Source of the DNA: Anastrepha obliqua
Lineage: Eukaryota > Arthropoda > Insecta > Diptera > Tephritidae
Length of the DNA: 64,000 bases
Direction: 5' to 3'
NCBI RefSeq assembly: GCF_027943255.1
Contig: NC_072896.1
Span: 49,130,501-49,194,500, forward strand
Within the stretch, counting starts at the first letter, position 1. Each line of letters starts with the position of its first letter. The notes under the pieces are model-generated. The model did not search any database. It was not told where the DNA came from and was given only the letters and a program-made list of their open reading frames with translations. The position numbers were made by a program, and so were the translations under genes. This document shows, one piece after another, positions 3,505-63,566 of this stretch.

Positions 3505-3516
3505 CATTACTGCTTA

Positions 3517-3832
3517 TACATATATATTTGGCACGTACATCCTTTTTGGGTGTTTGGCCGAGCTCCTCCTCCTATTTGTGGAGTGCGTCTTGACGTTGTT
3601 CCACAAATGGAGGGACCTACAGTTTTAAGCCGACTCCGAACGGCAGATATTTTTATGAGGAGCTTTTTCATGGCAGAAATACACTCGGAGGTTTGCCATT
3701 GCCTGCCGAGGGGCTACCGCTATTAGAAAAATGTGTTTCTTAATTTTGGTGTTTCACCAAGATTCGAACCGACGTTCTCGCTGTGAATTGCGAATGGTAG
3801 TCACGCACCAACCCATTCGGCTACGGCGGCCC
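3517..3832 (-). mobile_element. tRNA-derived SINE, full length, with 12-bp target duplication
   Basis: The element lies reversed: tRNA-like head at the right (GTAGCCGAATGGGTTGG in SINE sense, an A-box-like motif; a B-box-like GGTTCGAATC), body in the middle, tail at the left. It is flanked by a perfect 12-bp direct repeat, CATTACTGCTTA, at 3505-3516 and 3833-3844, proof of insertion by target-primed reverse transcription or a similar mechanism. The insertion is beside a LINE relic. Typical length in this window is about 300-330 bp. Confidence 0.92.
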
Positions 3833-8097: not shown

Positions 8098-8392
8098 AAA
8101 CGGCCGCCGTAGCCGAATTGGTTAGTGCGTGATTACCATTCGGAATTCACAAAGAACGTAGGTGAAATACCAAAATGAAGACAAGGTTTTCTAATAGCGA
8201 TCTCCCCTCGGCCGACAATGGTAAACCTCCGAGCGTATTTCTGCCATGAAAAAGCTCCTCATAAAAATATCTGCCGTTCGGAGTCGGCTTGAAATTGTAG
8301 GTCCCTCCATTTGTGGAACAACATCAAGACGCACACCACAAATAGAAGGAGGAGCTCGGCCAATGTACGCGCCAATTATTTTTTTTTATATA
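8098..8392 (+). mobile_element. tRNA-derived SINE inside a LINE, 9-bp target duplication
   Basis: Head at left (GCCGCCGTAGCCGAATTGG, A-box-like), body with AATAGCGATCTCCCCTCGG and CTGCCATGAAAAAGCTCC, tail with GAGCTCGGCCAATGTACG then GCGCCAATTA and a T/TA-rich end. TAATTTCAA flanks it at 8089-8097 and 8393-8401. The 3' hairpin seen in other copies has been lost in a short deletion between GGCCAA and GTACGC. Confidence 0.92.
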
Positions 8393-8977
8393 TAATTTCA
8401 ATAGGGAACCAAAGTTAGTATTATATTAGAAAAGGACGAATGGCGAAAGCGACAACTTTCAACGAGCCACACCCTTAAAATATACACAGAAGATTTCAAA
8501 ATGGAAGAGGGTGCTGGAGCCGCAGTATTCTGTTCGGAATTAGGCTATGAACAGTCAGACAAATTACCGTACTTCTGCAGTGCGTTCCAAGCTGAGATCT
8601 ACGCAGCAACGAAACCAGCAGACCTAGCCACAGAGAACACTCGTACAGGCAAGCAGCCACCAAGGTAATAGCAGCTGTAATGACAAACTCACACTGCGTA
8701 TGGCAGTGCCGTGACAGGATGGATGAGAACGAGAAAGTGGATATACTAGCCAAAGCAGAAGCAAAGCTTCCTGGAGCTAGCACGGTCGATATACAATCAC
8801 TTCTCTGCAAACAATGACTGGGTATAGATGCAGCAATGATTCAAGAAGCGAACTCAAAACGGGAAAAACCATCTCACGCAGGACCGCGAAACTCATGCTA
8901 CGAAGACACAATGTCAGGTCTACAAATTGTATGTTATCTCTTCCCAGAAAAGAGTGTAAACTTATAGTGGGGATACT

Positions 8978-11115: not shown

Positions 11116-12457
11116 ATCATCATCATCATCATCATCATAGCTTCACAGTTCGCGGTGAACCATTGCTTCCGTTACAATTCGCCTCCACGTCACTCGGTCA
11201 TCGAGCTTTTTGTTTGATATCAGATATGTCCATAGCTCCAAAGTCGCCTTATATGGGATTTCTCCATAATTTTCTCGGCCGACCTCTTCTTCAGTCGCCT
11301 TGTGAGTTTATTTCGAAGATTTTATTTAGAGTTCAATCGTTGCTCATTCGTAGCATGTGACCGTACCATCAAATCCTTTGCGTTTTGTACCTGATTATAT
11401 TCGCTCCCCTGATAAATGTGTCTAACTCGTCGTTGTATCGAATGCGGTAAGTACCTTCTTCAAGTCGTACAGGTCCATATATTTTTTTCAGAATCTTTCT
11501 TTCAAAACATTTTTACTGATCGGTTTCATTGGATTTCAGCACCCAGACTTCGCACCCGTATATGAGTGCAGGTCTTATGACAGTTTTGTATACTCGAAGT
11601 TTCTGGTTTCTAGAAAGTAATCTCGACTTCATCAACTTTGTAAGCGCGAAGTAAGACTTATTTGCGACTTGCATCCTGTCTTGTATGGCAATAGATGGAT
11701 GTTTCTGTGCGCTTAGCACAACTCCAAGATACTTAAATTTATTGACTATTTCAAAGCTATAGCTGCGGATTTGTAAGTTATGCCTTGCGCACTGACCCTT
11801 TCATATATTTGGTTTTTTCTTCGTTAATGATAAGTCCTACCATCTTAGCAGATAGTTCTAAACACACATAAATGTTTCTTGCAGAGCCTCTTTGTTTCTG
11901 GCTATAATTACGATGTCATCCGCATAAGCACAAATTTGTATAGATTTGCAAAAAATTGTGCCTGAGCGATCTATATCAGCACTACTAGATTGAAATAATT
12001 TCAAAATGCTCGGTGACATTATCTTGGACTCTCACTTTTCCCCCAAGTTCTTGTTAAAGTTATGCTAATTAGGCGTTCTAGTTTACAAGGTATGTCTAGC
12101 AGCTTTAAGTGATGTTCAATATGTTTTCGATTAAGTTTGTCAAATGCTCGTTTGAAGTCTGTAAAAGGACAACATAGCATAATTTTGTGTCCGTGACAGT
12201 TTTCAAATAACTGGGATAGCGAAAAAATTGGTCAATTGTAGATCGCTCTGCCCTGAAGCCGCACTGATAGTCGCCAATAATTCTTTCAGCATAATCATTT
12301 AGCTTTTTGTAGAGCATATTTGAAAATATTATGTGCCATGTATTCCGGCAGAGACGTTTCCACACTTGGTTTTAGCGACTTTTTTTATGTATTGGGACAA
12401 TTACGTTTTCTTTTCATCCTGTAGGCAGTTTTTCTTGTAACCATATTTGCAATCGCA
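11116..12457 (-). pseudogene. LINE (second type): reverse transcriptase with YADD box and ATG-repeat tail
   Basis: Read on the minus strand from about 12457: KENVIVPIHKKS, then RIIGDYQCGFRAERSTIDQF (early RT motifs), AYADDIVIIARNKEALQ around 11905-11935 (the catalytic centre), AIQDRMQVANKSYFALTKLM, and a thumb segment LRVYKTVIRPALIYGCEVW. A GRPR-like segment follows near 11280. The 3' end is a run of CAT on the plus strand (11116-11138), i.e. an ATG/TGA microsatellite tail. Frameshifts separate the blocks, so it is inactive. It resembles but differs from the 58784-59741 LINE in sequence and tail. It lacks RNase H as far as I can see. Confidence 0.82.
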
Positions 12458-13946
12458 ATTGATTTGTGAGTTTATATCCATATTTTCTATGCTTCTCCCA
12501 ATTATTTTTACAGAATACTTGTAATTTTTGGAATTACAAAATTTCGGACAGATTCATTGCTCGACAAAATTCGACATGCAGATTTAGCATCTCAAGATTA
12601 TCATACAAATATCTGATAGAAGCATCACCCAGGCAAAATCGAACACATAACTTTTTCATGTACAAAAATTTCTCTCTTCTTTTTTTTATAATTTTGAAAA
12701 TGTTTCTTTATTTCTCTAAATTCGAATATAAAAACAGCTTCTACTCACAATGAGCTGATGTAGAATGGAATACTTACAAGTATCTCCGAAAGGAAGCAAT
12801 TTTTGGTTTGTAAATAATAAAGCCTGACCTCATTTCTATGTTTTTCACCCAGGTGGATGCTTGAATGGGCAATCATATAACCTAACTTAACCTAACTAAT
12901 TTGTAATTCAATTCAATTTTTAATCCAAACTCAAATTTGTTTTAGCAGAAATCCACAAAAGCCCCCCTTATAAGCGCCCATGCCTATGAATAGGTTTGTA
13001 TATAACGGAACAAGGAGAACCTACATTGCACTCAAATTGAATTTACGGTCACTATGTGTGGCTTGAATAATATTATTTCGAGAGCACAGATGTAAGCCAA
13101 AGTGAATCAGCTAGCCAAGCTACGCCCAAGTGAGTCACTAGCACGTCTGAGGTAGTTATTGTTTTTATCGCCTCATTTTAACCGCATTGTGATTTTCAAA
13201 TGCTTAGTGCACTAGTTGGTGCTTGCAAGTGGATTATGCCAGCACTCTTCACAAGCCATAGACTGCAGTAATGCACTAAGATACCACACTACAGGCATGC
13301 ATACATACATACATATGTGCAAAGTATCCCCTAGACTTTTCCACAAAATCCGTATTATACTTACGCTACAAGTAAATCAAATTGGGCCAGACAGCGATCG
13401 AACGCCCAGAACTCTATGCGGAGACCGTAATGTGTTTGCTATTCGGACATTATAATAAAAAAAAAATTTCTCGTTGTTATAAATCGCCTTCTAAGTTCTA
13501 ATATCTTAGTAAAAGGGTGCTGTTGTTCTTTTAACTACTGAACATGTAATTTCTTTATAGGTATACATATATGTGTGTAGCTGTGAAAATAAATTTATCG
13601 TACGGATGTATGTCATGAATGCTTTCAACACTGCTTCCATTGTCATCTGCCTTCTTCTATTATTTCTTGCAAAATTTATTAATACTTGAACTTAATTATT
13701 TAAATGTTAATGCGAATGTTAAGAGCTCAATCTGAGACTAATACTTTTACTGAAAATTGGAAAAGTTTCATCCCATCTGGAAATTTCCATTCAGCCTTCA
13801 GCGGGTCCCGAACCCATGTCACTCCCCATGTTCGATGACTACGATACATAAGTTAAGGATATGCTTTGTAGACTGTTGGCATCAATGCCTTGACGAACTA
13901 AGTTTATACCTATGACTCAATATCCATATACATATAAGTGTACTTG
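12458..13946. other. Unrecognised sequence with a possible LINE tail
   Basis: No gene recognised. AACCTAACTTAACCTAACT at 12880-12898 looks like the 3' tail of an RNase H-type LINE such as 7595-9698, but I could not follow coding sequence upstream. CATACATACATACAT occurs near 13298-13313. Confidence 0.4.
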
Positions 13947-16174: not shown

Positions 16175-16469
16175 ATAAATAAATAAATAATTGGCGCGTT
16201 CACTTCTGTGGCGAGTTTAACCGAGCTCCTCCTCCTATTTGCGCTGTGCATCTTGCTGTTGTTCCACAAATGGAGAGACCTACAGTTTTAAGCCGACTCC
16301 GAACGGCAAAAAATCTTTGTCATGGCAGATCTACTCTCGGAGGTTTGTCATTACCTGCGACGGCTATAAAAAACTTTTTCTATCATTTTGCTGTTTCATG
16401 CACATATATTCGAACATACGCACTGCCAAATGGTCGTCGGGTATCAAACCATTTGGCTACGGCGGCCGA
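16175..16469 (-). mobile_element. tRNA-derived SINE, diverged copy
   Basis: The order from left is TAAA-rich tail, AATTGGCGCG, GAGCTCCTCCTCCTATTTG, GCCGACTCCGAACGGCA, then the head ending CCATTTGGCTACGGCGGCC. It has more substitutions and small gaps than other copies, and a TAAA tail instead of TA. I could not define a target duplication. Confidence 0.88.
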
Positions 16470-21204: not shown

Positions 21205-21390
21205 ACAAATATGAAATTCTAATAGCGGTCGCCTCTCGGCAAGCAATGGCAAGCCTCCGAGTGCAATTCTGCTGTGAAAAAGCTCAACATGCATTTGTGG
21301 CACAACATCAAGGCGCACACCACAAATAGGAGGAGGAGCTCGGCCAAACACCTAACAGAAGGGTACGCGCCAATTATTTATTTATTTTTT
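21205..21390 (+). mobile_element. 5'-truncated SINE
   Basis: It begins inside the body (TTCTAATAGCGGTCGCC), lacks the tRNA-like head, has an internal gap around CTGCCGTTCGGAGTC, and ends GGAGCTCGGCCAAACACC, GGTACGCGCCAATTA and a TTTA-rich tail. Confidence 0.88.
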
Positions 21391-21529
21391 AATACAAAAT
21401 ATCCTACTTAATTCAAAAGCAGGCTCGGTGACATCTTCACTCTGCAAAAGAAACACTCATTCATGACGAGGTGCGCTGAGCAAACTAAATATTACCGATT
21501 TAATAAAAACTATCACAGGTGATATGAAT

Positions 21530-40157: not shown

Positions 40158-40169
40158 GAACAGAATATT

Positions 40170-40790
40170 ATTGAATAGAAAAATACGATCGGTGTGAATT
40201 CTCATAGCTGCAGCAGGAACTACAAAGCTGACAAAGGCGAAAAAATTACTTCCCATTTCTTTGTTACTGTGCCGCACTGTGTAAGAACGGGCTTCGGTAT
40301 ATGGGAATGTCATTCTTAGATAACACTGTGGTACAAAAAAAAAAGTTGCAAAAAAACTTTGGATCGGACATGGTGAGGGTTGTAGCTTATGAAAAACTGA
40401 AAAGAATGGTATAGGAGAAATTTCCAATACACCCCCAAAATCTCATTTTATGGCCATAAAACCGTTTTTCAGTAGGTTGATATGAACAATCCCTCCTAAC
40501 TTCGCCAATTTCCATCCGATTTCGAATTTGCTTTTTTAGTTCGAAAGAACAAAAACAAGCCTTTTTGACAGTGTGTTAACATTTTTTCTGAAATGACAAC
40601 TGACGAGACTGTAGACGGAAGTATTTGGAATTTTTTTATTTTTTCTCTATTTTTTCGACTTTGGCATAATTTTTACGATATTATCCGATATTGAGGATTT
40701 TTTTTAGTACCCTACTGTGTTAATAAATTTAATTTTGCGTCGAATGAGCTATATTTGACTGTAATTGAATTAAAATTAATAGAACGAACG
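40170..40790. other. Unrecognised sequence
   Basis: The stretch 40320-40600 has a style common in dipteran MITEs (runs of T/A around short GC pieces such as CAATCCCTCCTAACTTCGCC) but I found no second copy here. A 104-codon minus frame (40113-40427) is not convincing. Confidence 0.35.
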
Positions 40791-43751: not shown

Positions 43752-44090
43752 GGCGGCCGCCGTAGCCGAATGGGTTGGTGCATGACTACTATTCAGAATT
43801 CACAGAGAGAATCTCGTTGGTTCGAATCCCGGTGAAACATCAAAATTCAAAAAAAAATGTTTCTAATAGCGGTCGCCCCTCGGCAGGTAATGGCATACCT
43901 TCGAGTGTATTTCTGCCATGAAAAAGCTCCTCATAAAACTATCTGCCGTTCGGAGTCGGCTTTAAACTGTAGGTCCCTCCCTTTGTGGAACAACATCAAG
44001 ACGCACACTATATGTAAATAGTAGGAGGAGCTCGGCCAAACACGCAAACAGGGTGTACGCGCCAATTATATATATATATATATATATAAT
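43752..44090 (+). mobile_element. tRNA-derived SINE, full length
   Basis: Head: GGCGGCCGCCGTAGCCGAAT with A-box-like TAGCCGAATGGGTTGG and B-box-like GGTTCGAATCC near 43818-43828. Body: AATAGCGGTCGCCCCTCGG, CTGCCATGAAAAAGCTCC. The tail at 44031-44068 (CTCGGCCAAA ... GCGCCAATTA) is the segment that resembles a LINE 3' end. It ends in a long TA run. A duplication could not be read because the right flank is another transposon end. Confidence 0.93.
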
Positions 44091-45602: not shown

Positions 45603-45604
45603 TA

Positions 45605-47031
45605 CTATTGTGGGCAAAAAGTAAGGTGAATTTATTTGTCAAACTTCGCGGGATTAAGATTTCGCTCTAGATATTTTTTTCATGAGTTGGCAGCACTGTT
45701 AATAACATCTGGGCCAACTTTCATGTGAATGTCATTATCAGTAATATATTTACGCTTGTGTTTACCAAACGACCAAGAGTGCATTTTTCGATTTTTACAA
45801 TGCCTGATTTGATTGAGCAGAGAAGTGCCATCAAACTTTGTTTGCGGAATGAAATTTCGGCTGCGGAAACGTTTGGCATGCAGAAGGCATTTGGTGATTC
45901 GACCATGTCGCAGAAAAATGTTTATAAGTGGTACAAAGACTTCAAAGAGGGTCGAGAACGTGTTGATGACTTGGAGCGCTCCGGACGACCATCGACGTCG
46001 ACAGACGACCAACACGTCAATAAAGTGAAGTAGTTAGTGCTCAAAAATCGTCGGTTGACTGTTAAAGACCTTACTGATATGATCGGAATATCAGAAGGAT
46101 CTGTGAAAACCATTTTGAAAGACCATTTGGGCTTACGAAAAGTCAAATCTCGTTTGGTACCGAAAACTCTCAATTTCTTGGAAAAAAGTCATCGCGTTGA
46201 TGTGTGTGAAACAATGCTTTCAGACTATCAGGACCAACTCAAATGCATCATTACGGGAAATGAGACTTGGATTTATGCTTACGACCTTGAAACAACCGTC
46301 CAATCAAGCGAATATCGTGCTAAAGGTGAGGCCAGACCGAAAAGAGCACGTCAAAGTCGTTCAAAAATAAAGGTCATGATGACATTTTTCGTGGTGTGGT
46401 GCACTATAATTCCTTCCACCTGGCCAAACTGTTAATAAGGAATATTATTTGAGCGTTATGCGTCTTTTACGTGAAGCAATTCGTCGAGAAGGACTTGGCT
46501 TCACTTGGTGTGTCCAATTGGCGCCGGTTAGCACGAGAAAGAAACGACTGGCGCGCTTTGTTAAACTCGGCCAAAATCGCGTAAGCGGTTATAGCGCCAA
46601 TTAAGAAGAAGAAGAATTCGTCTAAAAAGACCAGAATTATGGGCCAACAACTCTTGGTTTTTGCATCACGATAATGCACCGTCTCCCACTGCACTCGTTC
46701 TTCGTGACCATTTCGCCAAAAATATCGTTCTGCAACCACCGTATTCGCCTGATTTGGCTCCGTGTGGCTTCTGGCTATTCCCAAAACTCAAGAGACCACT
46801 CCGGGGAATGCGTTTCGAGTCGATTGAGGAGATAAAAGCTGAATCGAAGAAGGTGCTGATGGCTATACCGGAAATGGACTATTTGCCATGTTTCGGGGAT
46901 TGGAAAAATCGTTGGCATAAGTGTATTTCATCGAGAGGAGATTATTTTGAAGGGGATGAAATTGGTTTACAAGAGTAAATAAAGATTTTTCATTTTAGAA
47001 TCAAATTCACCTTACTTTTTGCCCACAGTAG
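45605..47031 (+). mobile_element. Mariner 4, near full length, split by a LINE tail
   Basis: Ends CTATTGTGGGCAAAAAGTAA and (minus sense) CTACTGTGGGCAAAAAGTAA are inverted repeats with TA on both sides (45603-45604, 47032-47033). The transposase starts MPDLIEQRSAIKLCLRNEIS (45800), runs through SMSQKNVYKWYKDFKEG-like and a SGRPSTSTDD linker, to a stop at 46030 where the sister copy has GAG (Glu). Further on TGNETW shows the first catalytic Asp changed to Asn, and FLHHDNAPS and PPYSPDLAPC hold the other two. A LINE 3' end (46486-46614) splits it. Without these defects its length would fit the mariner norm of about 1.3 kb. Confidence 0.92.
46486..46614 (+). mobile_element. 129-bp LINE 3' end inserted in mariner 4, 8-bp target duplication
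   Basis: It is flanked by AATTCGTC at 46478-46485 and 46615-46622. The content equals the last part of the LINE at 58784-59741: ACTTGGCTTCACTTGG, GGTTAGCACGAGAAAGAAAC, the segment 46566-46603 that resembles the SINE tail, and an AAG-repeat tail. This extreme 5' truncation shows the 3' end alone is enough for the final product. Confidence 0.95.
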
Positions 47032-47114
47032 TATGTTGGTATACTCTTCATATGAACGTATGTGCATTTTCATTTCAATCTATCAATTCGTTCTTAGTTT
47101 ACAAGCCCTTTAGT

Positions 47115-48789
47115 ATCGACGTGTCACAGTATTTCCTACAAGGAAAAAAATTAAGTATCGTGCAGTCATAGAATTTTTAATTTTGGAAGGCTTAAAGGCC
47201 AAGCAAATTTATGAACCAGTGTTAAAAGTGCCTAAGGCCCTTCGCCAAGTCGCCATCAGTTAGTACAGTAGAAAGATGAGTTGCTGGATTTAAAAGTGGT
47301 CGTACAAGCCTTGAAGACCAGCCACTTCACGGACGTCCAAAAACAGCAACAACACCAGAAATAGTAGAAAAAAAAACAGGATATCGTATTGGAAAATCGT
47401 CAAGTGACTGAAAGAGATTCAATGGAAGCCCTAAGCATCTCATTGGGCAGTGTAAGCAATATTTTGACTGAAATATTTGGTTTCAGAAAGCTGTGTGACA
47501 TTCGAATGTTACTTTCTCAGCAACATTTAGAGCGCTTTCAAAAGATCCACGTGGATTTTGTGTGTCGATTCATCATTGTGGATGAGACTTTGGTCTATCA
47601 TCATGATCCTAAATTAAAACAAGAGGCTAAGGAGTGGTGTGAGCCTGGTTCTTCGGCTCCGAAACGAGTTCGTGTCCAGAAATCAGCCTAAAAGGTGTTA
47701 CCATCAGTTTTTTGGGATGCGGAAGGAATTTTGTTTGTGGATTACTTGCAAGCTGCAAAAATTCTGAATATTATCAGGACAATGCACCGAGTCACAAGAG
47801 CATTTAGACAATGGCTAAAATACATGACTTAAAGCTCGAATTTTTGGAGCACACCCCGTGATCACCAGATTTTGCCCCTATTAACTGTCATCTGTTTCCA
47901 GACTTAAAAAATCCATGTGTGAAAACCATTTTTCATCAAATGATGTGTTCATAACAGCTGCGGAAGCGTATTTTGCAACCCTACACTTCATGGATGGAAT
48001 TCATAAATTGGAATCTCATTGGATCAAATGTATTGAGATTCAGGGAGACTATACTGATTAATAAAGTGCATTTCAAATCATAGAATTGTGTTTTTCTTAT
48101 CGAACCGCAAAACTTATTGAACAACCTGAAATTGAAATTGAAATTTGAAAAGGTCAAGCCAAGGAGCACCAGGAGATTTGGTGACTCCTAAAACACTCAG
48201 TCTAAAAAGCCCATTATATTTAAAGCTCTGGAAAGGGAGTGGATAGTCAAGGAGGGAAGGAGAAAAGTCTCAGAGAAAGAGACAGAGATAGAGATAGTTA
48301 GTCCTGTGAGAATATTCCACATTCTTTGGCAAATCTGTAAATATGCTCCAGTTTTAGAGAACGAATATTACTCATTCTCATGACATCGGAACCCAAAACT
48401 CGTAGCCGTGCTCCAGCAAAGGCAGGACACTCACAGAGAAAGTGCTCAGTGCTATCCGCCTCTTCCAAGCACGACAGGCACACTGGGTCTTCAATGATTC
48501 CAATGGTGGTCATATGCTGAACCCATGGGTTGTGTCCTTTAATGATACCGACCATCAACCGAATGTCTTTCCTTCTAAGTTTTAGTAGACAGTTTGACAG
48601 TTTTCTGTTCGGACATATCACAAAACACTTTGCAGTTCTGCAGCGTTCCAGACCGGACCATCGCTCTTTATGCAGATTGGCTACATAATTGCTGATCCAG
48701 TTCATGATTCCTGCGGAACTGATTCCGATTATTGACTCTGGCCCTTGTGGGGGCACCGCTGATCCACGGTTGAACATTGAACAACCTAG
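47115..48789 (+). mobile_element. Mariner 5, 5' end missing, 3' end split by a LINE
   Basis: Plus strand: EFLILEGLKAKQI near 47173 (helix-turn-helix start), VAGFKSGRTSLEDQPLHGRP-like, LENRQVTERDSMEALSISLG (47389), FIIVDETLVYHHDP with the first catalytic Asp, YQDNAPSHK with the second (47780-47806), and SPDFAPINCHLFPDLK with the third (47862-47910). All three Asp are readable, but frames shift and stops occur. The 3' end TTATTGAACAACCT is interrupted by the LINE at 48128-48775. I could not find the matching left end. Confidence 0.85.
48128..48775 (-). mobile_element. 5'-truncated LINE in mariner 5, 12-bp target duplication
   Basis: ATTGAACAACCT flanks it at 48116-48127 and 48776-48787. On the minus strand a frame (48298-48777) encodes QGPESIIGISSAGIMNWISN, then HKERWSGLERCRTAKCF, and a zinc cluster CLSCLEEADSTEHFLCECP. 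The 3' tail is an ATTTCA/TTTCAA repeat. It corresponds to the end of ORF2 after RNase H. Same family as 56306-56858; that copy has a deletion relative to this one in the zinc region. Confidence 0.93.
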
Positions 48790-48996
48790 TATATGTGTAG
48801 AATTGAATTAAAATAGAATTTTAAATCAATTATTTATATATATAATTAGCAAATTTGTTTTTGCATGACATTTTTATGCTCTCTAGTGAAAGGCCTTACA
48901 ATGCAGGCCAACTTTCAAAACAGAATCATAGCCGACGAATTGGGAGAATGGTTATACCTTACTACAAGGTGACGCAAAATTGGTCACCCCATCAGA

Positions 48997-49308
48997 AGAG
49001 CGAGCGGCTGCCGTAGCCGAATGGATTGGTGTGTGACTACCAGAGAAAACGTAGCTTCGAATCTCGGAGAAACACCAAAAATTAAGAAAAACATTTTTCT
49101 AGTAGCGGTCGCCCCCGGCAGGCAATGGCAAACCTGTATATTTCTGCCATGAAAAAGCTGCTCACAAAAAATATCTGCCGCTCGGAGTCGGTTTGAATAT
49201 GTGGGTCCCTCCATTTGTGGAGCAACATCAAGACGCACGCGACAAATAGGACGAGGAGCTCGGCCAAACACCCAGAAAGGGTATACACGCCAATTATATA
49301 TGTATATA
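48997..49308 (+). mobile_element. tRNA-derived SINE inside the MITE, its TA tail split by a mariner
   Basis: The head GCTGCCGTAGCCGAATGG is followed by a head with a deletion around the anticodon-like region and by the usual body. The tail at 49259-49296 (CTCGGCCAAACACCC, GCGCCAATTA-like CACGCCAATTA) runs into TA-rich sequence. The TA-rich tail resumes after the mariner, at 50502-50522. Confidence 0.88.
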
Positions 49309-50501
49309 ACGGGTGATTTTTTAGCTATTATCGTTTTAAACAGTTGGTATATTATTATATAGGTTAATTTTATTATAAAAATGCGTGTTCTGTTAAGGAA
49401 GTTAAAAAAAAAAATAAATAAATAATTGGCGCGTACACTTCTGTTAGGTGTCTGGCCGAGCTCCTCCTCCTATTTGTGGTGTGCGTCTTGATGTTGTTCC
49501 ACAAATGGAGGGACCTACAGTTTAAAGCCGACTCCGAACGGCAGATAGTTTTATGAGGAGCTTTTTCATGGCAGAAATGCACTCGGAGGTTTGCCATTGC
49601 CTGCCGAGGGGCGACCGCTATTAGAAAAATGTTTTTATTAAATTTGCTTTCACCGAGATTCGAACCAACGACCTCTCAGTGAATTCCGAATGGTGATCAC
49701 GCACCAACCCATTCGGCTACGGCGGCCGCCTAAGAAAGTTTAAGATCCACCTTTTTATTGAAAAATTGTGTTCAGCGACGAAGCTCCATTTTGGATCAAT
49801 GGGTACGTAAATAAGCAGAATTGTCGATTTTGGAGTGAAGATCAGCCAGAAGAATTGCAAGAGCTACCAATGTATCCAGAAAAGGTCACAGTTTGGTGCG
49901 GTTTATGGGCTGGAGGTATCATTGGACCGTACTTCTTCAAAGATGGTGCGAATCGTAACGTAACTGTGAATGGTGAGCGCTACCGTGAAATGATATCCAA
50001 CTTTTTTTTGCCCAAAATACAAGAGCTTGGCTTGTATGACATGCGGCTTCAGCAAGACGGTGCCACATGCCACATCCCACACAGCACGCGTAACAATGGA
50101 CTTGTTGAGAGGCGAGTTCGGTGAACATTTTATTTCACGTTCGGGACCTGTCAATGGGCCACCCAGATCGTGCGATATAACGCCTTTAGATTATTTTTTG
50201 TGGGGCTATGTTAAAGCTCATGTCTATTCAGACAAGCCTGCTTCAATTAACGCATTGGAACACAACATTAAAACATTTATATGTGAGATACCGGCCGAAA
50301 CATTGGAAAGAGTATGCCAAAATTGGACTAAGCGGATGGACCATTCGAAGGCAGTCGCGGTCAACATTTGCATGAAATAGTCTTCAAATATTAAATTATA
50401 TGGACTGTACTATCGATTTAAATAAAAATTGCATGCATTTTTCTGAATTTTACGTGTGTTTTTTTGAAAAACTTTCCTATAGCTCTTAAAAAATCACCCT
50501 T
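49309..50501 (+). mobile_element. Mariner 6, internally deleted, split by a SINE
   Basis: Ends ACGGGTGATTTTTTAGC and (minus sense) AAGGGTGATTTTTTAAGAGC are inverted repeats, with TA outside (49307-49308, 50502-50503). The transposase N-terminus is deleted; coding resumes at 49768 with MFSDEAPFWINGYVNKQNCR (first Asp in FSDEA), VTVWCGLWAGGIIGPYFF, VTVNGERYREMISNFF, then LQQDGATCH (second Asp, 50050-50076) and, after a frameshift near 50095, PPRSCDITPLDYFLWGYV (third Asp). Related to mariner 2. A SINE splits the left part. Confidence 0.9.
49404..49730 (-). mobile_element. tRNA-derived SINE in mariner 6, 10-bp target duplication
   Basis: TAAGGAAGTT (49394-49403) and TAAGAAAGTT (49731-49740) flank it, with one mismatch. 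It is complete, from the head CGGCCGCCGTAGCCG at the right to a TAAA/T tail at the left. Its tail carries the ACACCT...AAGTGT form of the hairpin. Confidence 0.92.
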
Positions 50502-50674
50502 TATGTATAGATATATATATATAAGCAGAGCTGCAATATGTAAACAGGCAAGCAATGAAGTGCGTAAAGATTAAAAATCTAAAAAAGATTTCCATCCCTC
50601 AAAATCATGCTTTTTTATTTAGTAAAACAGTTATTCACAACCAAGATTGGATGATTAATTGCGCGCCATCTTGT

Positions 50675-51870
50675 GTGTTTGTATTATGAGCTCAAGTATA
50701 TCAACAAGTCAACTAAAACAAATTCTTTAAAATGTTGAAAATTATCTTATAGTTCCAAAAGTAAAAGTTGGTTAGTTTTAACTTTTTATATATATTTTTT
50801 TGATTTGAAGGAAATTATTTTCTTAAAAACAAATCTTTCTATTTTTGAATTTTTTTTAGTTTTTGGTGAACATTTTTTTGTCATATATGAAAGACACCCC
50901 CTTCCTTATTTTTTTTTTTTTTGCTATTTCCATTAATAGAGACTATGTCGGCTCTGAAAGTTTCATAGTGGGAATGCCAGTGAAAAATGCCGTGTGTCTG
51001 TTTACTAATCCACGTTGCGACGCTTCGATTGATTTGCACACGGATTAATAATATGTTACATATTAAATTATAATTGATAAAATAGGACTGGAGGCGTGAG
51101 CATAATTAGAACGAACTTGAAAAAAGTATTTGCCTGGAATGCATTTTATAGAGAAATGCTTCTGCATTCCACTGATATCTATCAGGTATGAAACAGCAAT
51201 GGAAATGGTGCCAAAGGTGTGCTAGGCCCGGAACTTTTCAGTCCATATGTTAATATTATATACGAGTATGTATGCCAGTGCTTCGCTAGAGCAGTATTCA
51301 GACTTGAAAGGAAGCTTAGAAGGGACACAAATTGCTTACCCGTTTCCCGATAAAGCATTATGTCCTCTTCCCCGTACAGATTAACGATGTGATGTGGAAT
51401 AAATTGCAGGGATCATCAATATTCATGGACGTACTTCGAGTTAGTCGTTACTGAATTAAGGGTCTTGTACGCAAAGTTTCAGACTACAAAATATTCGAAA
51501 TTCATTATGCAGCCTCGCCTTCATGTCAGTTGTATAGATTCCCTATTGAAAAGCACTACAGTGGTCTGGAAATAGTCATACATAAGCTTATCTCAACGAA
51601 AGTTGCTGTGCACTGTTTCAATGCTAGATTCATCGGTGAATATTGCAAGCACAGCTGCGCTTAGAAGGATATCAATTTCTCAGTCATTATATTTTTTTTA
51701 TAGTGCTAATACAGTAATTGCAAACCCACCTAAATTGTTGAGCTCCATGTGAACTCGGATGGAGAGCCCCACAATAATGAAGTTATTGACAGCCGGACGT
51801 ACAATAACTTCGAGAATAGTCAGTCGTATGAGCTAATGGAATTATATCAAATTCTCTCATAAATATAAAG
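50675..51870. other. Unrecognised sequence
   Basis: Long T runs near 50900-50930, then moderately GC-rich sequence at 51100-51700 without a recognised frame. It may hold old retroelement sequence but I cannot identify any. Confidence 0.4.
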
Positions 51871-51960
51871 TAGTGCAAAATTAATTATTCAATTTTGTTT
51901 TTGGATAACTTTCTTACTAAATAAAAAAAAATGATTTTAAGTGATGTTCTAAGAAAAGTA
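51871..51960 (-). repeat. MITE-like fragment
   Basis: TAGTGCAAAATTAATTATTC and TTTCTTACTAAATAAAAAAA match, reversed, the right end of the unit at 62975-63205. The remainder is absent. Confidence 0.6.
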
Positions 51961-52359
51961 TAATTAAATAAAAAAAAACTTTTTTTTAACAAATAATATA
52001 AAATCCAAATCACAAAGGACCAAATAAAAACATTAGTTCTCATGAAAATAAGGATACATAGTGTAGTTTCATAATTTCGACTCGTCGCTGTTTTCAGCAA
52101 ATTTTCTAAAACCCATTCGACCACCACTAAAATTCATTCCACCGTTGCAGTTAACAAATGTTTGAAATGATTGTAGCTTTTAGTTTTTTTTTTTCGTGCC
52201 TAGAATGATGAAAAGTGACAACCCTTATTCCTGTTAAATTTTGGAGCCCCCAACAACACTCGACTAGGGAATCTCACCACACAAACTGGTAATTATGTGG
52301 AAATTTAGAGTAAATTAGTTTCTTTGGGGTGAAATATCTTAACCAGGTTTTGTTAAAGG

Positions 52360-52822
52360 AACGAAGCGGGATTGTTGTTATAAGTTCTCTTTACCCCAAT
52401 ATATGGTGTACTTAACGCTCTGCAAGGATGATAGATTTACCAGATTTGCTCTTTAGCTATGGTGAAAAAGAAAATTATGAGGGGAACTTCGGCTGCCACG
52501 TCACAGGGGACTCAGCAGCCGAATTATGTACGATCATTTCACACATATTCACACACTCGTGCAATCAGTCGTTGTTCAGACGCCAACGAAGTGCCATTGG
52601 CTAATTTTTTTCGTTTATCACTAACCCAATCTCAGTTGTTTTGTAAACACATCCCAAGTCACGTCGGCACATCTACTGATTATGTCAAATTCACTGAGCG
52701 CCAAAGCCGGATAACGGAAGTTAAAGGGCACAATCTGAAAATATTCTCACCATCGGTTTTTTAGAGTAACGAAGCGGGATTGCCGTGATAAGTTCTCTTC
52801 ACCACCGTCTGTGGTGTACTTA
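52360..52822 (+). repeat. 'Family B' repeat bounded by a 55-bp direct repeat
   Basis: The unit 52423-52760 begins CAAGGATGATAGATTTACC. Sequences at 52360-52414 and 52768-52822 are direct copies (AACGAAGCGGGATTG ... ATAAGTTCTCTT ... TGGTGTACTTAA), diverged by roughly a fifth. This could be a tandem remainder of a longer element. The 101-codon frame inside (52459-52764) has no recognised domain. Confidence 0.65.
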
Positions 52823-52829
52823 ATTCTAC

Positions 52830-53693
52830 CACACTGGTAGCTGGCGCAGAGAATACTAATTCCTAAAAAAAATAATAATATTTTATGTTATAATAAAATT
52901 ATCAGCAATGCGAAATATTTTCTTTTAAAGAACAATTTGGAACTTTTATTTGGTGTTTAATTCGTTTAAATTTTGTTTTAACTAAATCTGATCCCTTTTT
53001 TTCAATTCGATTAAAAACTGTTGGCATGATCCAAAGGAAAATTAACCCTTGCGGTAGTTAAATGTTCTCATTCATTGAGCGCATATCCCCTGCGGCGCTT
53101 TTATAGAAACTCCAAGACCGATTGCAGCACGTGGTGGCACGTATTTGTTCGAAAATCCGAAAGTAATAAATAACTGTTCCCGACTCTCTATGAGCGGCCT
53201 CTTTGTTTTGTCCTGTTATTACTTATTCTCTCGGTTTTATTTGATGCACAGCAGTTGACCCACACCGCCAACGAATGGTTGAGATGCAAACCAAATCGAT
53301 TAAATATGTTACCGCACCACATAACAGATATGTAGAGAAGCTGTTAACAGCAGAGATGAGCGAAAGTGTGTTATCGACGATTTATGTATTGAAAATGGAG
53401 AACTAAATATTAGCAGGGAATGCTCACAAGATGCAATTCCCAGTTTGTTCCTGTACTAAAATTCACCACACCAAAAACAATTGGTTTTATTAGAATTTTT
53501 ATTTATACCAGCGTTTACGAGAGCTTGCATAAATGGGATGATGGTTGTAAGCCTACTGTTCAAATATTGGCAGCTAAGGTTGATTTATGCGTTCAGAGAT
53601 ATTCAAACCACTTTCAGTTGAGGAAGATGATTGTCACATATAAATATCCAATAAAAGCAAAGAGATTCAGTGGCGGTCTGTTTAACTAACCAC
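52830..53693. other. Unrecognised sequence
   Basis: Short frames only (e.g. 53420-53689). No repeat seen. Confidence 0.4.
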
Positions 53694-54150
53694 CATCGGT
53701 TAGGAAATTTCACCATACAAGAAACTAATTCATTCTAAATGGCCGCTGACTGATTTTTTCAGTGGTGAAATTTCCCTCGTCAAGGATCATAGATTTACAA
53801 GGTTTGCTCTTTAACTGTGGTGGAAAAGAAAATTGTGAGAAAAACTTCTCTCCCCACGTCTATTGGGAGATTCGGCAGCCCAATTCGGCACGATCATTTC
53901 ACATGTATTGACACACTCATCCAGTCAGCCATTGTTCAAACGGCAACGAAGTGACAAGGTGTTGAAGTTTTTCGTATATCACAAACACAATCTCAGTTTT
54001 TTTGTCAACATATGCCCTTTTTCGTCGGCCTATCAGCTAATTCTGTCAAAATTCTCTCAGAGTCGAATAACGGTATGTCAAAGAGCACACCTCTAAAAAT
54101 CTTTTCGCCATGAAATTTCACCCACTTTTTCCTAACAATCCTAGGGAGGG
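53694..54150 (+). repeat. 'Family B' repeat, copy with inverted outer blocks
   Basis: The inner unit 53781-54115 matches 52423-52760. Outside it lies a perfect 13-bp inverted pair, GGAAATTTCACCA (53704-53716) and TGGTGAAATTTCC (53763-53775), and a third copy, GAAATTTCACCCA, at about 54111-54123. GGTTAGGAAA at the left and TTTTTCCTAACAATCC at the right may be terminal inverted repeats. Confidence 0.6.
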
Positions 54151-54879
54151 TATGTTTTATCTAACCCAAACTGCTTTGCTGGGCTTCGAAGGCAAATTTA
54201 TTTCGTGTTTTATGAATTTTGAATAATTTATTCCAACGCATTTTTTTTTTTTTTTGTTTTTTTTTTTTTTGATAAGCAGACACAAATCAAAATGACAGAA
54301 GCATTATCAAAGGTGCGTTACACCAGTGATATGTGGGGCGTGCTCCCACTAAGCCTATAACATTCCTCCCCCTCGGCTGCTTTACACCCAGGAATCGCCT
54401 CAGCATTTCTTCAAGGTGGAGCCGCGTTTATGTCTATAGGGGCAACAGGTTCCTGCTTCAAGGTGGGCATATGAAGACTTTACACCATCGATAGCATCCA
54501 CTCTTCCCACTGCGTTCATAAGCAGTTGTGCAAGAAATTAATAATCGAGAAATGTGCAATAGTCCGATACTTACAAACTATTGTAGTGTCTTCTCTTTTA
54601 TACTGTAGTAAGTGATTTGCTCAAGCGTCGGTATTTGTCGACGATTTGACTAAAACAATTCCTCTCCATTGCAGAGCTGATGCTAGTGTTGCAATCGTTT
54701 CTCGACTTTCCTCTCCCAGTCAACGTGGTTGACCCTCATCACGACTGTTGCCGCGAACGTTATTACGGTGTCCCATTTAGCCATGGACGAGCATATATCC
54801 GAGGCAGATCTTGTGTGAGACTGCCGGATATTCAAATGCCTACTGCAACACTGCTCTTTCTTCTTTAAAACGTTTGCAG
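54151..54879. other. Unrecognised sequence
   Basis: Poly-T runs at 54241-54272, then a GC-richer stretch at 54300-54540 whose short frames I do not recognise. It may be part of the adjacent LINE. Confidence 0.35.
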
Positions 54880-55650
54880 CACTTGATCTTTCCAACGGAG
54901 ATGTGGTTTTCCTCTACCTCATCTTCCATTTTAGGGCATCGTGTTATAGATTCGCCTTGGTGAAACGTACTCGTTCATATAGATAAACGATTAACCACGC
55001 TCACTAACGAGGAGACGACCAAAGATCTTACGGAGAATTTTTTTTTCTCGAAGGCTCCCAAAACTTTTCCACCTGCTGTTGAGATCTTACATGTTTCAGC
55101 GCCATAACATACAGCATGACGGGAGTGATGAGCGTTCTGTAGAGGTTTAGGTTGGGCCTTCGAGAAAGAGCTATAATTCTCAATTGCCTACTGAGCCCAA
55201 AGTACCCCCTTTTGGCAAGAGTTATTCTCCAAGGCGCAAGGCGAAAGATTTTTTGCAGTAAGGAGGAGGAAGAAAGAGAATAAATAACCTTATATGAAAC
55301 CTCGCATGGTATAGAACGGCTCGGAGAGGTTGCTTCCAATTCTGACGGAGCTTGAGGTAGAGGTCAACGTCAGCATACACAGCTGTATTAGTTTTGCGCG
55401 TATACCAAACTCAGACGTATCTGTGCTTTTAAAGGTGGCCTTAAAGTAGATTAAGAAATGGTGTGTGTTGAGTTGTTTTTCATGGCTATTCTTCAGGATT
55501 TGGCGTATTGTGAAGATCTGGTCTACGGTGGGCTTACCAGATCTAAAGCCGCACTCTTAAAACCAAATCAGTTTGTTGAGGATGGACTACATTGTCTTAC
55601 ACAATACGCTCGAATTGTTAAGCAAACTTATCCCGCCGTAGATTGCAAAA
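54880..55650 (-). pseudogene. LINE reverse transcriptase fragment (58784-59741 family)
   Basis: On the minus strand: ECGFRSGKPTVDQIFTIRQI near 55490-55550, ATFKST and KLIQLC-like pieces, NLSEPFYTMRGF, then a jump to YFGLSRQLRIIALSRRPNLN and LYRTLITPVMLYVMALKHVR. The palm with YADD is deleted. This is the same LINE type as 58784-59741, with many frameshifts. Confidence 0.72.
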
Positions 55651-55849
55651 TCAATTTACCATCTCTTCTGCGCTTTCCCGAGAAATAAGTTGTGCAATCT
55701 CGCTTTGCCAACAGCCTGGGGGATGCCGATGACCGGATGGGAGACTTCTGAGGCCAATTAAATCGACCCCTTCCTGGCAAGCTCATCAGCCATTTCATTT
55801 CCCCCTATGTTTCTATGTCTTGGAACCCAGATCAGAAAAGTATTACTTA

Positions 55850-56174
55850 TATATATATATATAATTGGCACGTACGCCCTCTTGTGTTTGGCCGAGCTGC
55901 TCCTCCTAATTTGCGGTGTGTGACTTGATGTTGTTCCACAAATGGAGCGACGGACCTACAGTTTCAAGCCGACTCCGAACGGCAGATATTTTTATGAGGA
56001 GCTTTTTCATGGCAGAAATACACTCGGAGGTTTGCCATTGCCTGCCGAGGGGCGCCCGCTATTAGAAAAATGTTTTTTCTTAATTTTGATGTTTCACCGA
56101 GATTCAAACCAACGTTCTCTGTGAACTCCGAATGGTAGTCACGTACCAACCCATTCGGCTATGGGGGCCGCCGT
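55850..56174 (-). mobile_element. tRNA-derived SINE, 12-bp target duplication
   Basis: AAGTATTACTTA occurs at 55838-55849 and 56175-56186. Full-length, head at right, TA tail at left. It is inserted inside the RNase H part of a LINE. The hairpin arms near 55872-55888 are partly degraded. Confidence 0.95.
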
Positions 56175-56305
56175 AAGTATTACTTACACACCCAAAATAT
56201 GTTATCTCCTCCTTGCCTGAGTTGACTAGTTTGGATCTGCACCAGAGCGTCTTCCGAACCGTGTTCGCGGCTTGACTTTTGGAAAAAATGTTAATATCTC
56301 CCTCG

Positions 56306-56858
56306 CTCCCCCACAAGGGCCAGAGCCAATAATCGGAATCAGTTCCGCAGGAATCATGAACTGGATCAGCGATTATGTAGCCAATGTGCATAAAGAGCGA
56401 TGGTCCGGTCTAGAACGCTGCAGAACTGCAAAATGCTTTGTGACAAGTCCGAACAGAAAACTGTCAAACTTTCTACTAAAACTTAGAAGGAAAGACGTTC
56501 GGTTGATGGTCGGTATCATTGAGGACCCAATGTGCCTGTCATGCTTGGAGAAGGCGGATAGCACTGAGCACTTTCTCTGTGAGTGTCCGCTGTCATGAGA
56601 ATGAGTAATATTCGTTCTCTAAAACTGGAGCATATATACAGACTTGCCAAAGAATCTGGACAATTCTCACAGGGCTAACTACCTCTATCTCTATCTCTAT
56701 TCTTTCCTATCTCTTTCTCTGATACCTTTCTCCTTCCCTCCTTGACTATCTACTCTCTTTCCAGAGCTCTAAATGCAATTGGCTTTTTTGCCTGAGTGTT
56801 TTAGGAGCCACCAAATCTCCTGGTGCTCCTTGGCTCGACCTTTTCAAATTTCAATGTT
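56306..56858 (+). mobile_element. 5'-truncated LINE inserted in a LINE, 9-bp target duplication
   Basis: TCTCCCTCG flanks it at 56297-56305 and 56859-56867, and the reverse-strand host LINE reads on across it. Coding: QGPEPIIGISSAGIMNWISD, HKERWSGLERCRTAKCF, CLSCLEKADSTEHFLCECP. Compared with 48128-48775 it lacks about 30 bp after ECP and has a gap of about 20 bp before the zinc cluster. It ends AAATTTCAA. Confidence 0.93.
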
Positions 56859-57560
56859 TCTCCCTCGTTCCAATGTCCCCTAAGCATTTTGCATGCCTGC
56901 GGCATCGCGAAGGTTTCTGCCTGAAAACACTAGCAGTATTCGGTCATTTTAAGGAAATGGATAAATTGGCTGATTTCGAGAAAGCCCCTGCTCAGACTCC
57001 CCATTCCATCTCCCCCTGCTCCGACTCCCACTTTCCTGCTTGGAAAGATTGCCCTCCAGTTTGCGGATAGAGAAATTTGCACAAAGTTCAAAGAAATATG
57101 GTGTTAACTATCTAAAAATACTACCATGTCCCTTGAGAGATTGCCTCCTGAGGGCAACCTCCTTTAACCTGATTACACTTTGAGCAGCGATGGAAATAAC
57201 GTAATAGTTGATGATAAGTAAATGCAAAACGGCATAAGGATCGCACCGGGACAAATTCTACATTCTCCGGTGATGCCAATACAAACAGTCCTTGGCACAC
57301 TCGCCAGTTTACTGTCATCAGCGGCCTTGCGAAGAGCTTCCCACCAAACCAGGCATCCGTATGTGAAAACTCGCAGAATACTACCTTGTACATCCAAAGT
57401 ACAGCTTGTGGGTTGAGTCCCCATTTTTTGACGAGCATAGATTTGCAGAAATAGAAAGCTATACTGTCCTTCTATACCCAATTTTCAATGAGTAGCCTCC
57501 AGTCGAGTTTGGAGTCAAGTAACACTCCAAGACTTCCGATGAGAGCGGGAGAAGGTGGTT

Positions 57561-58675
57561 ATCTAATGTGGGAAGTCCACAGTGTGGCGGTTTATATCAG
57601 TAAATACGTTATTGAATTATGTTTTTTGCTGATTTTTACACTCACTCGTCTCCCCTTATTCTGGGGTTTACGAAAACGGAGTGTGGTTGGTATGAACATA
57701 CATACATACATGTGTTAGAATAAGTACATACATATACTTACTTGTTGTTGTATGCATATGCACATACCTACATGTGAGAATATTTAAACTTCCGACCAAA
57801 ATTATATCCATCACATGCTGTTGAGTTTTTCTATTAGAAAACTTGGCAAAGACCTACTAAAGCCCAATTACCTGCATATTTGTTTGTATGTATGTACATA
57901 ACTTCCAATGCAAGCAGACTTTTATTATTTTATGTCGGTATGTATGGACTTATGTATGCTTATTGAAGTGGTATTAAATATTGCATAGACGCAGCAGCCT
58001 TCAGTCGAGTCCCCCATCGGGTACAAAGTTGCTGCAACAACACAAAGCATACACACAACGAAGGACCAAAAATTTTTATTTTATACGCAACAGCAAAGTT
58101 TATCCGCAATATCAGTTTGCATTTAAGTACCAAATACCCATTTCCTCCTTAGATGCACATCAAACCTGTCAAAGCGAACAAACATCAAGCAGGAAAAGTA
58201 CAGCCAAATTTGTTTTTTTTTTATTTGCATTGCTTATCACTTTTTCCAGGATTTTTTGGTTTCATACTTTTGCACTACAACAGCAAAAACAAGTCGATAA
58301 TAAGTAAAGTAAATATGAAAATCTGAGTTGTCGTTAGTATTGAGAATTTGGGCACATACATACATACATTTGTACATAAATATTTCTGTTTAGAAATTAG
58401 TAAAGCCCCAAAATTAATTTTTTGATGGGTCTTAAAACTGCATCTGCTCATAAGCATCTGCAATAATTGAATAAAAATAGCGTAGAAACACAGTAGATGA
58501 TGGCAAACTCTTATTCTATGTGTACTTTTATCTTTTTGCCAGGCATCAGGCATCAACAAATTGGTCTAGAGGTGGGAAGAGGTTGTGAATAGTAACGGCG
58601 GATACATAATTAATTAACTTGTTGATGTAATTATTGCTTTTTGTTTAAATAAAAGAACAAATAGAGTAAAAACGC
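57561..58675. other. Unrecognised sequence with TACA microsatellites
   Basis: CATACATACATACATG near 57699-57713; short frames only. The 57981-58307 frame (108 codons) has no recognised domain. Confidence 0.4.
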
Positions 58676-58679
58676 TACG

Positions 58680-60191
58680 AACTTATTTCCCAACCTAATA
58701 AAGGTGTTACAGGTGAATGGATTGCGCTATCTAGAGATGATTAACGGTGTTTTATGGCCGGAATTGGATGGTATTGATCTGGAGTCTGAATTTGGTATCC
58801 CCACAAAACTAATACGGCTTTGCAAGATGACGTTGCTCAGCACCAGCAGCAGAATTGGGAAGAACCTCTCCGAGCCGTTTGATACCAAACGAGGTTTCAG
58901 GCAGGGCGACTCGCTGTCGTGTGACTTCTTTAACCTGATGTTGGAGAGCATCGTACGAGTCGCCGAACTTAATCGCTCAGGCACAATATTTTATAAGAGC
59001 GTACAATTGTTGGCGTACGCCGATGATATTGACTTCATCGGCCTAAACAACCGCGCTGTTAGTTCTGCCTTCTCCAAACTGGATAAAGAGGCAAAGCGAA
59101 TGAGTCTGGTGGTGAACGAGGACCAAACGAAGTACCTCCTTTCTTCAAACAAACATGTCAGCCTTGAAATCCAACGTAGAATCTATCTGGCCAACAAGTG
59201 CTACTTTGGACTAAGTAGGCAACTGAGCAGTAAAGTCCTCTCTCGACGAACAAAACTAACACTCTACAAGGCTCTCATCATGCCCGTCCCAACGTATGGC
59301 GCAGAAGCTTGGACGAGGACAACATCCGATGAAGCGACGCTTGGAGTGTTTGAGAGAAAGATTCTGCGTAAGATTTTTGAACCTTTGCACGTTGGCAACG
59401 GCGAATATCGCTGGCGATGGAACGGTGAGCTGTATGAGCTTTACGACGACATAGACATAGCGCATTGAATAAAGATCCAGCGGCTTCGTTGGCTGGCTCA
59501 TGTCGTCCGAATGGATACAAACTCTGCGTATTTAAAAGTATTCGATGCGGCACCAGCTTGTGGTAGCAGAGGAAGAGGGCGGCCTCCTCTGCGTTGGAAA
59601 GATCAGGTGAAGAAGGACTTGACTTCACTTAGTGTGTCCAACTGGTGCCGGTTAGCACGAGAAAGAAACGACTGGCGGGCGGGCTTTGTTCAACTCCACC
59701 AAAACCGCGTAAACGGTTATTGCGCCAATTAAGAAGAAGAAGATCTGAACAACGTTTATTTTCAACAAGACGGCGCTACGTGCCACACAAGCAACGAAAC
59801 CATTGATCGGGAAAAGTTTCCAGACTGTGTTATCGCTCGAATAGGTGATCACAATTGGCCACCAAGATCTTGTGATTTAACGCCTTGTGACTTTTTTTTT
59901 TAGGGCCACGTGAAAGAGAAGGTCTACGCCAACAGGCCAGGGTCGATTCAAGACCTCAAAGATGAAATTCGTGAGGCTATCGAGGACATAGTGCAGCCAC
60001 TTTGGAATTCGGTTATGGAAAATTTCATGAAAAGGATATTGTCCTGTAAGCGTGGTCATGTGCCTGATGTTATTTGCCACTATTAGCGGCATAAATTCCT
60101 CTTTATAATGAAATAAACATCCGACCATTTATGTTAAAAAATAGCATTTTTCTTTGAATATCAAAATAACACCTCTTATTGAAAAACCCTT
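58680..60191 (+). mobile_element. Mariner 2, second deleted copy, split by a LINE
   Basis: The right end (minus sense AAAGGGTTTTTCAATAAGAG) is followed by TA at 60192-60193; the left end is degraded. It starts coding at VNGLRYLEMINGVLWPELDG, is split by the LINE, and resumes FQQDGATCHTSNET (59757-59798, second catalytic Asp kept), a CDLTPCDFF block (third Asp), VKEKVYANRPGSIQDLKDE and NSVMENFMKRILSCKRG. The N-terminal half is missing at the same join as the 6307-6725 copy. Confidence 0.85.
58784..59741 (+). mobile_element. 5'-truncated LINE with RT catalytic box, 8-bp target duplication
   Basis: GATCTGGA (58776-58783) and GATCTGAA (59742-59749) flank it. The reverse transcriptase part is mostly open: EFGIPTKLIRLCKMTLLSTS, EPFDTKRGFRQGDSLSCDFF (motif B-like), LLAYADDIDFIGL with the catalytic YADD, VNEDQTKYLLSS, then SLEIQRRIYLANKCYFGLSR, thumb LTLYKALIMPVPTYGAEAW, and after one stop (59466, likely CGA to TGA) IQRLRWLAHVVRM and GRGRPPLRWKDQ. 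About 35 codons are missing before SLEIQRR. It ends with an AAG tail. 3' segment 59694-59731 resembles the SINE tail. No RNase H. Confidence 0.93.
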
Positions 60192-63318: not shown

Positions 63319-63558
63319 GGCGCCCGCCGTAGCCGAATGGGTTGGTGCGTGATTACCATTCGGAATTCACAGAGAGAAGGTTGGTTCGAATCTCGGTGAA
63401 ACACCAAAATTAAAAAAAAACATTTTTCTAATAGCGGTCGCCCCTCGGCAGGCAATGGCAAACCTCCGAGTGTATTTCTGCCTTGAAAAAGCTCCTCATA
63501 AAAATATCTGCCGTTCGAAGGTGTATGCGCGCGCCAATTATATACATTGATATATATA
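63319..63558 (+). mobile_element. SINE with internal deletion, 8-bp target duplication
   Basis: TAAAGTTA at 63311-63318 and 63559-63566. The head GCCCGCCGTAGCCGAATGG and B-box-like GGTTCGAATCTC are intact. The body stops at CTGCCGTTCG and jumps to GGTGTATGCGC, GCGCCAATTA and the TA tail, losing about 80 bp. Confidence 0.92.
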
Positions 63559-63566
63559 TAAAGTTA

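Follow-up and report, generated by a model that had tools for sequence, protein, structure and literature searches.

Short and long interspersed elements (SINEs and LINEs) that share a 3' tail are well known in pairs, and the account in PMC3747384 has CR1 and RTE LINEs predominating and RTE LINEs having many SINE partners. Here we describe such a tail in Anastrepha obliqua, in a stretch of 64,000 nucleotides (nt) from contig NC_072896.1 (positions 49,130,501 to 49,194,500, forward strand; hereafter the window), where a tRNA-type SINE and a LINE resemble each other over their last 38 nt. We regard this as real tail sharing of the known kind, with a hairpin as its likely signal. The SINE probably consists of a tRNA-derived head joined to a 38-nt tail from the 3' end of an RTE-kind LINE, its partner being this LINE family or a sister family. 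Two features are less usual and merit further attention: the stop codon that ends the LINE reading frame falls within the hairpin, and the same shape occurs in another LINE family.

A close parallel is the HaSE1 SINE of Helicoverpa armigera, reported to pair with the HaRTE1.1 LINE at 82% identity (PMC3272025). As far as that pair is described, the common traits are an insect host, a tRNA-headed SINE with a central domain, an RTE-like 3' tail, a short 3' untranslated region (UTR), a trinucleotide tail, 5'-truncated copies and target-site duplications (TSDs); unlike that pair, the elements here agree at 68-74% over 38 nt and combine unlike tail repeats with a similar fold. The Metulj SINE of Heliconius likewise is an insect SINE with a suspected RTE LINE partner and varied tail repeats, whereas its description, in the part concerned, does not argue for a hairpin (PMC6685494). 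In the literature consulted, the 3' hairpins that have been tested belong to LINEs of the L2 clade, to R2 and to a salmon SINE. In UnaL2 and its SINE, and in ZfL2-1 and ZfL2-2, a 3' stem-loop is needed for retrotransposition; in the ZfL2 elements the stem is reported to be swappable but the loop, where specificity lies, is not (PMC4176376). These elements belong to the L2 clade and have a specific loop, whereas the loops compared here are unlike, and the account of the stem-loops in that source makes no mention of a stop codon in the loop. Monocot SINEs and LINE1-1_ZM are described as sharing a 3' hairpin with compensatory stem changes between LINEs and SINEs, but they are plant elements of the L1 clade and their loop is conserved (PMC3747384). 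Bombyx R2 is said to recognise the Drosophila R2 end, and an RTE stem-loop in mammals is mentioned in the same source (PMC5135761). RTE elements are given as 5.27% of the medfly genome (PMC5034548).

Two LINE copies lie on the forward strand of the window. Copy L1 (46486..46614) is 5'-truncated, encodes a product ending in NWRRLARERNDWRALLNSAKIA before its stop, terminates in (AAG)n and is flanked by the TSD AATTCGTC (5' copy at 46478..46485, forward strand, 3' copy at 46615-46622). Copy L2 (58782..59741) is also 5'-truncated and is the worse of the two: it has an in-frame TGA at 59466-59468, a 4-nt insertion upstream near the end that shifts the frame, CACC in place of GGCC in a degraded tail, and a possible TSD of 6 nt (GATCTG). 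The LINE protein matches RVT_1, and its closest named relatives are tephritid proteins, from Zeugodacus cucurbitae and Bactrocera dorsalis, labelled transposon-derived protein, LINE-1 ORF2 or uncharacterized. The pattern of its C terminus and the shortness of its 3' end make the LINE a putative member of the RTE clade; in copy L1 the 3' UTR measures 19 nt from the stop to the end of the conserved tail, followed by AAG repeats, a very short 3' UTR of the kind typical of RTE elements. The SINEs first compared with it, both of subfamily A and on the forward strand, lie at 43752..44088, with a (TA)n tail, and at 49003..49310, and no TSD was found for either. TSDs, 5' truncation and simple-repeat tails are common to SINE and LINE.

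The four 38-nt tails that the preliminary description had singled out were all verified, at 46566-46603 (copy L1), 59694-59731 (copy L2), 44031-44068 and 49259-49296 (the two SINEs), and its estimate of about 27 agreeing positions between copy L1 and the SINE consensus came to 27/38 on recount. Copy L1 agrees with the SINE tail at 44031 in 27/38 and with that at 49259 in 26/38 positions, and copy L2 with the SINEs in 25-26/38. Chance resemblance between two AT-tailed repeats could be argued from the shortness of the shared stretch, which is only 38 nt, but it is highly improbable: in an anchored comparison with the SINE consensus, none of the dinucleotide shuffles, 20,000 for each LINE copy, scored above 23 (mean about 11.5), against the observed 27, and the 10-mer GCGCCAATTA occurs eight times in the window, counting both strands, always at a SINE (6) or LINE (2) end. 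The part of the earlier comparison that leaned on copy L2 held less well than that on copy L1; when the 120-nt ends were scored by local gapped alignment against the SINE tails, the score of this poorer copy was reached by 47 and 188 of 2000 shuffles, and that of copy L1 by 0 and 1.

The same likeness was found with consensus tails. Tails were surveyed in 344 kb, made up of the window and 28 further stretches on contig C5 of the same genome, each 10 kb long (handles such as L014 denote stretches). The last 145 nt of the LINE have 10 matches there and the SINE has 41, of which 26 reach the SINE 3' end (8 in the window). Across the genome (836,466,488 bases in 204 contigs) the last 10 nt of the LINE plus its repeat have 2331 + 2308 = 4639 exact matches, and a reversed control has 0. 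From the first 20 places listed among these matches we built a LINE consensus tail, CTCGGCCAAAATCGCGTAAGCGGTTATCGCGCCAATTA, then AGAAGA; with the last 10 nt serving as anchor, columns 29-38 are fixed by choice, and one of the 20 ends (L048) begins inside the tail. The SINE tails fall into subfamily A, CACCCAAAAAGGGTG, mostly with TA repeats, and subfamily B, CACCTAACAGAAGTG, with T-rich or TTTA repeats, besides some mixed copies; the SINE consensus of the preliminary description is one of the two, the A tail. The LINE agrees with SINE A in 28/38 and with SINE B in 26/38 positions, the flanks GGCCAA and GCGCCAATTA being nearly invariant and the middle variable. The likeness is confined to these 38 nt, as tail exchange predicts: nothing upstream is common to the two elements, and comparison as DNA and as protein ruled out homology there. 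By this comparison of sequences we consider the SINE and LINE 3' ends homologous.

Which side gave the tail is suggested by the coding end of the LINE. The frame of copy L1 (..DWRALLNSAKIA) terminates at a TAA at 46582..46584, and in the young L023 copy the frame is ..DWRALLSSAKIA up to its stop. Eight relatives were compared at the C terminus, one of which (P0125) lacks the end. Four of the remaining seven end their frame as copy L1 does (P0001 DSAKIA, P0121 DSAIIA, P0002 DSAITG, P0123 RSAVTR), so the frame of copy L1, not that of copy L2, is the kept one; six of the seven, P0122 and P0124 included, have S-A at the place of CTCGGCCAAA, and P0048 has S-V. The CTCGGCCAAA of the SINE is, in the LINE, the close of the coding frame (..N-S-A-K-I-A-stop), where S-A is kept in most relatives; it therefore most likely came from the LINE side, which would make the LINE the tail donor.

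No other LINE matching the SINE tail better, which the preliminary description had named as grounds for giving up its proposal, was found in the 344 kb, nor was a LINE bearing the SINE's own tail. LINE-type tails there adjoin LINE bodies in 8/8 cases; SINE-type tails adjoin a SINE body in 24/26, neither body in 2 and a LINE body in none. Six other LINE 3' ends, read by eye, lack the shared tail (L014, L019, L021, L022 at 5647, L038 and window 11165); their best relatives are P0059 (three ends), P0014, P0025 and P0041, perhaps four families. The true partner might instead be an unseen sister LINE family that has the SINE's own hairpin and ends in repeats of TA or TTTA, in which case the LINE described here would be only a cousin of it. 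This reading would agree with the differing tail repeats and loops of LINE and SINE and with the same shape, in other letters, of the L032 LINE family. It would also agree with the window itself, where four A tails carry TA and three B tails TTTA (subtypes assigned by eye, two copies that lack the middle being set aside). However, none of the 26 SINE-type tails adjoins a LINE body, and the subtype rule does not always hold outside the window (an A copy with an A-rich tail at L019 6193, another with a mixed tail at L030 2635, and a copy with a mixed middle and TA at L037 7424). We regard a sister family as a possibility of real weight, if somewhat short of an even chance. What stands of the earlier proposal that this LINE mobilises the SINE through the hairpin is thus its broader part: given the homology and the lack of a better LINE in the 344 kb, the SINE is likely mobilised by a LINE of this group, and exactly this family, acting through exactly this hairpin, may be the means.

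A 3' stem-loop is predicted in all three 38-nt consensus tails, and the minimum-energy form is the same in each: an outer GGCC/G.GCC helix encloses a hairpin that begins at base 10, at -10.7 kcal/mol in the LINE, -14.2 in SINE A and -6.4 in SINE B. LINE and SINE A have six inner pairs each. The LINE helix had been read earlier as AACCG/CGGTT around CGTAAA; the consensus instead gives AATCGC-GTAA-GCGGTT, with 6 bp, one U-G pair and a 4-nt loop, and the hairpin named in copy L2 (59703-59718) does not appear in the minimum-energy fold of that copy. In copy L1 the outer helix joins 46569-46572 to 46594 and 46596-46598, the inner helix 46575-46580 to 46585-46590, and the stop codon falls inside the loop GTAA (46581-46584). 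The claim that the arms change while pairing is kept holds between copy L1 and SINE A, where both bases have changed at three of the six inner positions (A-T/C-G, T-G/A-T, G-C/C-G) and no pair is broken; SINE B keeps only four inner pairs, and the loops differ.

Chance gives the two middles very different rates. Interior shuffles match the middle pairing of SINE A at a rate of about 0.0001-0.001 (0.0002-0.0005 where the helix abuts GGCCAA), and six pairs arise in interior shuffles of the LINE in 7% anywhere, 0.6-2% in the SINE register and 2.5-5% abutting GGCCAA. When 11 changes accumulate by drift, starting from the SINE, six pairs stay in register in 0.6% of cases on a strict count and in 1.9% if a shift of plus or minus 1 is allowed. 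In 26 LINE tails (15 distinct; L048, cut in the tail, was dropped and the degraded copies L022, L024 and L026 were left out), 90.0% of inner and 80.0% of outer cells are paired (best slid controls 63.3 and 50.0), and in the 12 SINE tails (9 distinct) out of 26 ends that passed a near-consensus filter, 74.1% and 97.2% (51.9 and 50.0); the filter and the left-out copies make these counts lean to structure. Covariation within one family was discarded as a source of evidence, the copies mostly just decaying.

These figures bear on a reading that keeps the homology of the tails but gives the hairpin no role as signal; the protein would read the flanks GGCCAA and GCGCCAATTA, and the middle would drift freely. 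The near-invariant flanks around a variable middle fit it, as do the weak inner stem of SINE B and a SINE (tail at 8355, element at 8101..8394, forward strand) whose inner hairpin is mostly missing but which is flanked by a TSD, AATTTCAA, although this loss may postdate insertion. Conversely, the middle of SINE A pairs far better than its shuffles, the inner helix of the LINE survives longer context and the L032 family pairs at the same place; we judge recognition of the flanks alone rather unlikely.

The third element, at 6381-6960 of L032, is a single copy, with stops, of another LINE family, spotted because its end looked alike. Its last frame reads ..VAAKTDHRL before the stop, and it ends in GGCCAAGACCGACCATCGGTTGTAATTGCCAACTAAGTAAG and an (AAGT)n tail. 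A 41-nt piece folds alike, with GGC/GCC outside and GACCGA/TCGGTT inside (-10.0); the fold persists in a 51-nt piece and is lost in a 61-nt piece, and six pairs in that place arise by chance from its interior in 2.4%. The stem is encoded by the codons K-T-D-H-R-L. Three of 53 GCCAA[CT]TA sites in the 344 kb have GGC and a perfect 6-bp helix (copy L1, the young L023 copy and L032), all at LINE ends; no SINE copy passes this strict test, B having too few pairs and A being changed in stem or flanks. In an insect RTE-type LINE group, the last codons and stop of the reverse transcriptase gene might double as an RNA hairpin read by the protein, selection on the fold shaping the C terminus and SINEs keeping these codons as an untranslated signal, constrained in its pairing but not in its stem letters. 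We hold this doubtful; if it is right, a selfish gene would show dual coding on a small scale, with one stretch serving as both hairpin and stop codon.

Under the tail-sharing reading that we favour, the LINE protein would bind the tail RNA, chiefly at the hairpin and its conserved flanks, and would start target-primed reverse transcription on LINE or SINE RNA alike, so that hairpin letters could change while pairing stayed; the partner would be either this LINE family or a sister of it whose tail is of the TA or TTTA type. A LINE and SINE set with replaced stem letters and kept pairing would allow a clean test of shape versus letters in RTE recognition.

Several observations weigh against a hairpin signal shared with this LINE. 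SINE B, the more uniform subfamily, has only four inner pairs, the copy L2 tail lacks a fold of the consensus type, and the loops are GUAA in the LINE and AAAAA or AACAG in the SINEs; in ZfL2-1/2 specificity lies in the loop rather than in the stem. Longer context is partly unfavourable: with 20 or 40 nt added upstream, the young LINE copy in L023 keeps 6/6 inner but 0/4 outer pairs; in SINE B (L014) both helices persist with 20 nt added, and neither does with 40; SINE A (window 44031) retains 5/6 inner and 4/4 outer pairs. At 0.6-7% of shuffles, the LINE hairpin alone is weak evidence, and the covariation rests on three families, the third of which resembles the SINE tail (score 9) and the LINE (7) about equally. 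Three of the seven relatives (P0122, P0048 and P0124) end at least three residues later. The LINE ends in AAG repeats but the SINE in TA or TTTA, and for this reason a sister family may be the exact partner. AAG-type repeats, however, also follow unrelated LINE ends in L021 and L022, which makes them a poor family mark. Terminal repeats are reported to vary between related SINEs (PMC8010984, PMC6685494), and we do not hold an identical repeat as defining for a tail-sharing pair. Insertion sites, by contrast, speak for the pairing, although A-rich tails blur the AA counts of both families: TSDs were found for 10/26 SINE ends, six starting with AA or TAA, three more doing so after by-eye trimming of tail-like leading bases and one not, and AA directly follows (AAG)n in 10/24 LINE flanks (two of the 24, L053 and L054, have the same flank) against about 2 expected at 38% GC.

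The remaining SINEs of the window vary in state. On the reverse strand are a subfamily A copy at 3515..3831 (TSD AAGCAGTAATG), an old copy with a B-like tail and (TTTA)n at 16175..16468 (no TSD found), a subfamily B copy with (TTTA)n at 49402..49730 (TSD AACTTyCTTA) and an A-like copy with a TA tail and a middle 3 nt short at 55850..56172 (TSD AAGTAATACTT). On the forward strand are a 5'-truncated subfamily B copy at 21217..21396 (TSD AATACAAA) and one with an internal deletion at 63319..63560 (TSD TAAAGTTA); in all, a TSD is present for 6/9 window SINEs examined. Four subfamily B copies (L014, two in L018, L030) are identical over 38 nt. Across the window and L014-L041 the tail subtype mostly tracks the repeat subtype, as if families seed their own microsatellites. 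In L019, at about 8380-8630 on the reverse strand, repeated pieces carry the SINE tail, one with CATCC/GGATG for CACCC/GGGTG, a paired two-sided change. The SINE is presumably tRNA-derived, with A and B boxes recognised by eye; ARAGORN found no tRNA in the window, Rfam gave no match there at gathering scores, and a protein search with the SINE frames gave none. Pattern searches of viral contigs and one protein scan returned no relatives outside the genome, and eight bacterial matches from a pattern search of genome contigs were dismissed as chance, the fetched loci sharing only 17-25 nt seeds with the SINE. Among the matches listed in letter and word searches of an open-access library, none described the SINE.

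Copy L1 is enclosed by a transposon whose helix-turn-helix resembles that of Mos1 below the Pfam cut-off; other tested pieces of it had no Pfam match. This transposon (45603-47030) and the one around copy L2 (58700-60200) are probably mariner-like. The window end at 11165 noted above belongs to a divergent LINE with many stops on the reverse strand (11140..12464), whose unrelated 3' end and (ATG)n tail served as a control. Inverted copies at 48137-48807 and 56308-56855, 91-95% alike, resemble by eye the 3' part of another non-LTR element, and Pfam had no match for 48301-48807. A reverse-strand open frame of 428 amino acids with an RNase H domain (38918-40201) is likely another LINE type. Outside the window, L048 holds a LINE copy cut down to about its last 20 nt plus the AAG tail, and in L051 a SINE head-like stretch stands directly 3' of a LINE tail.

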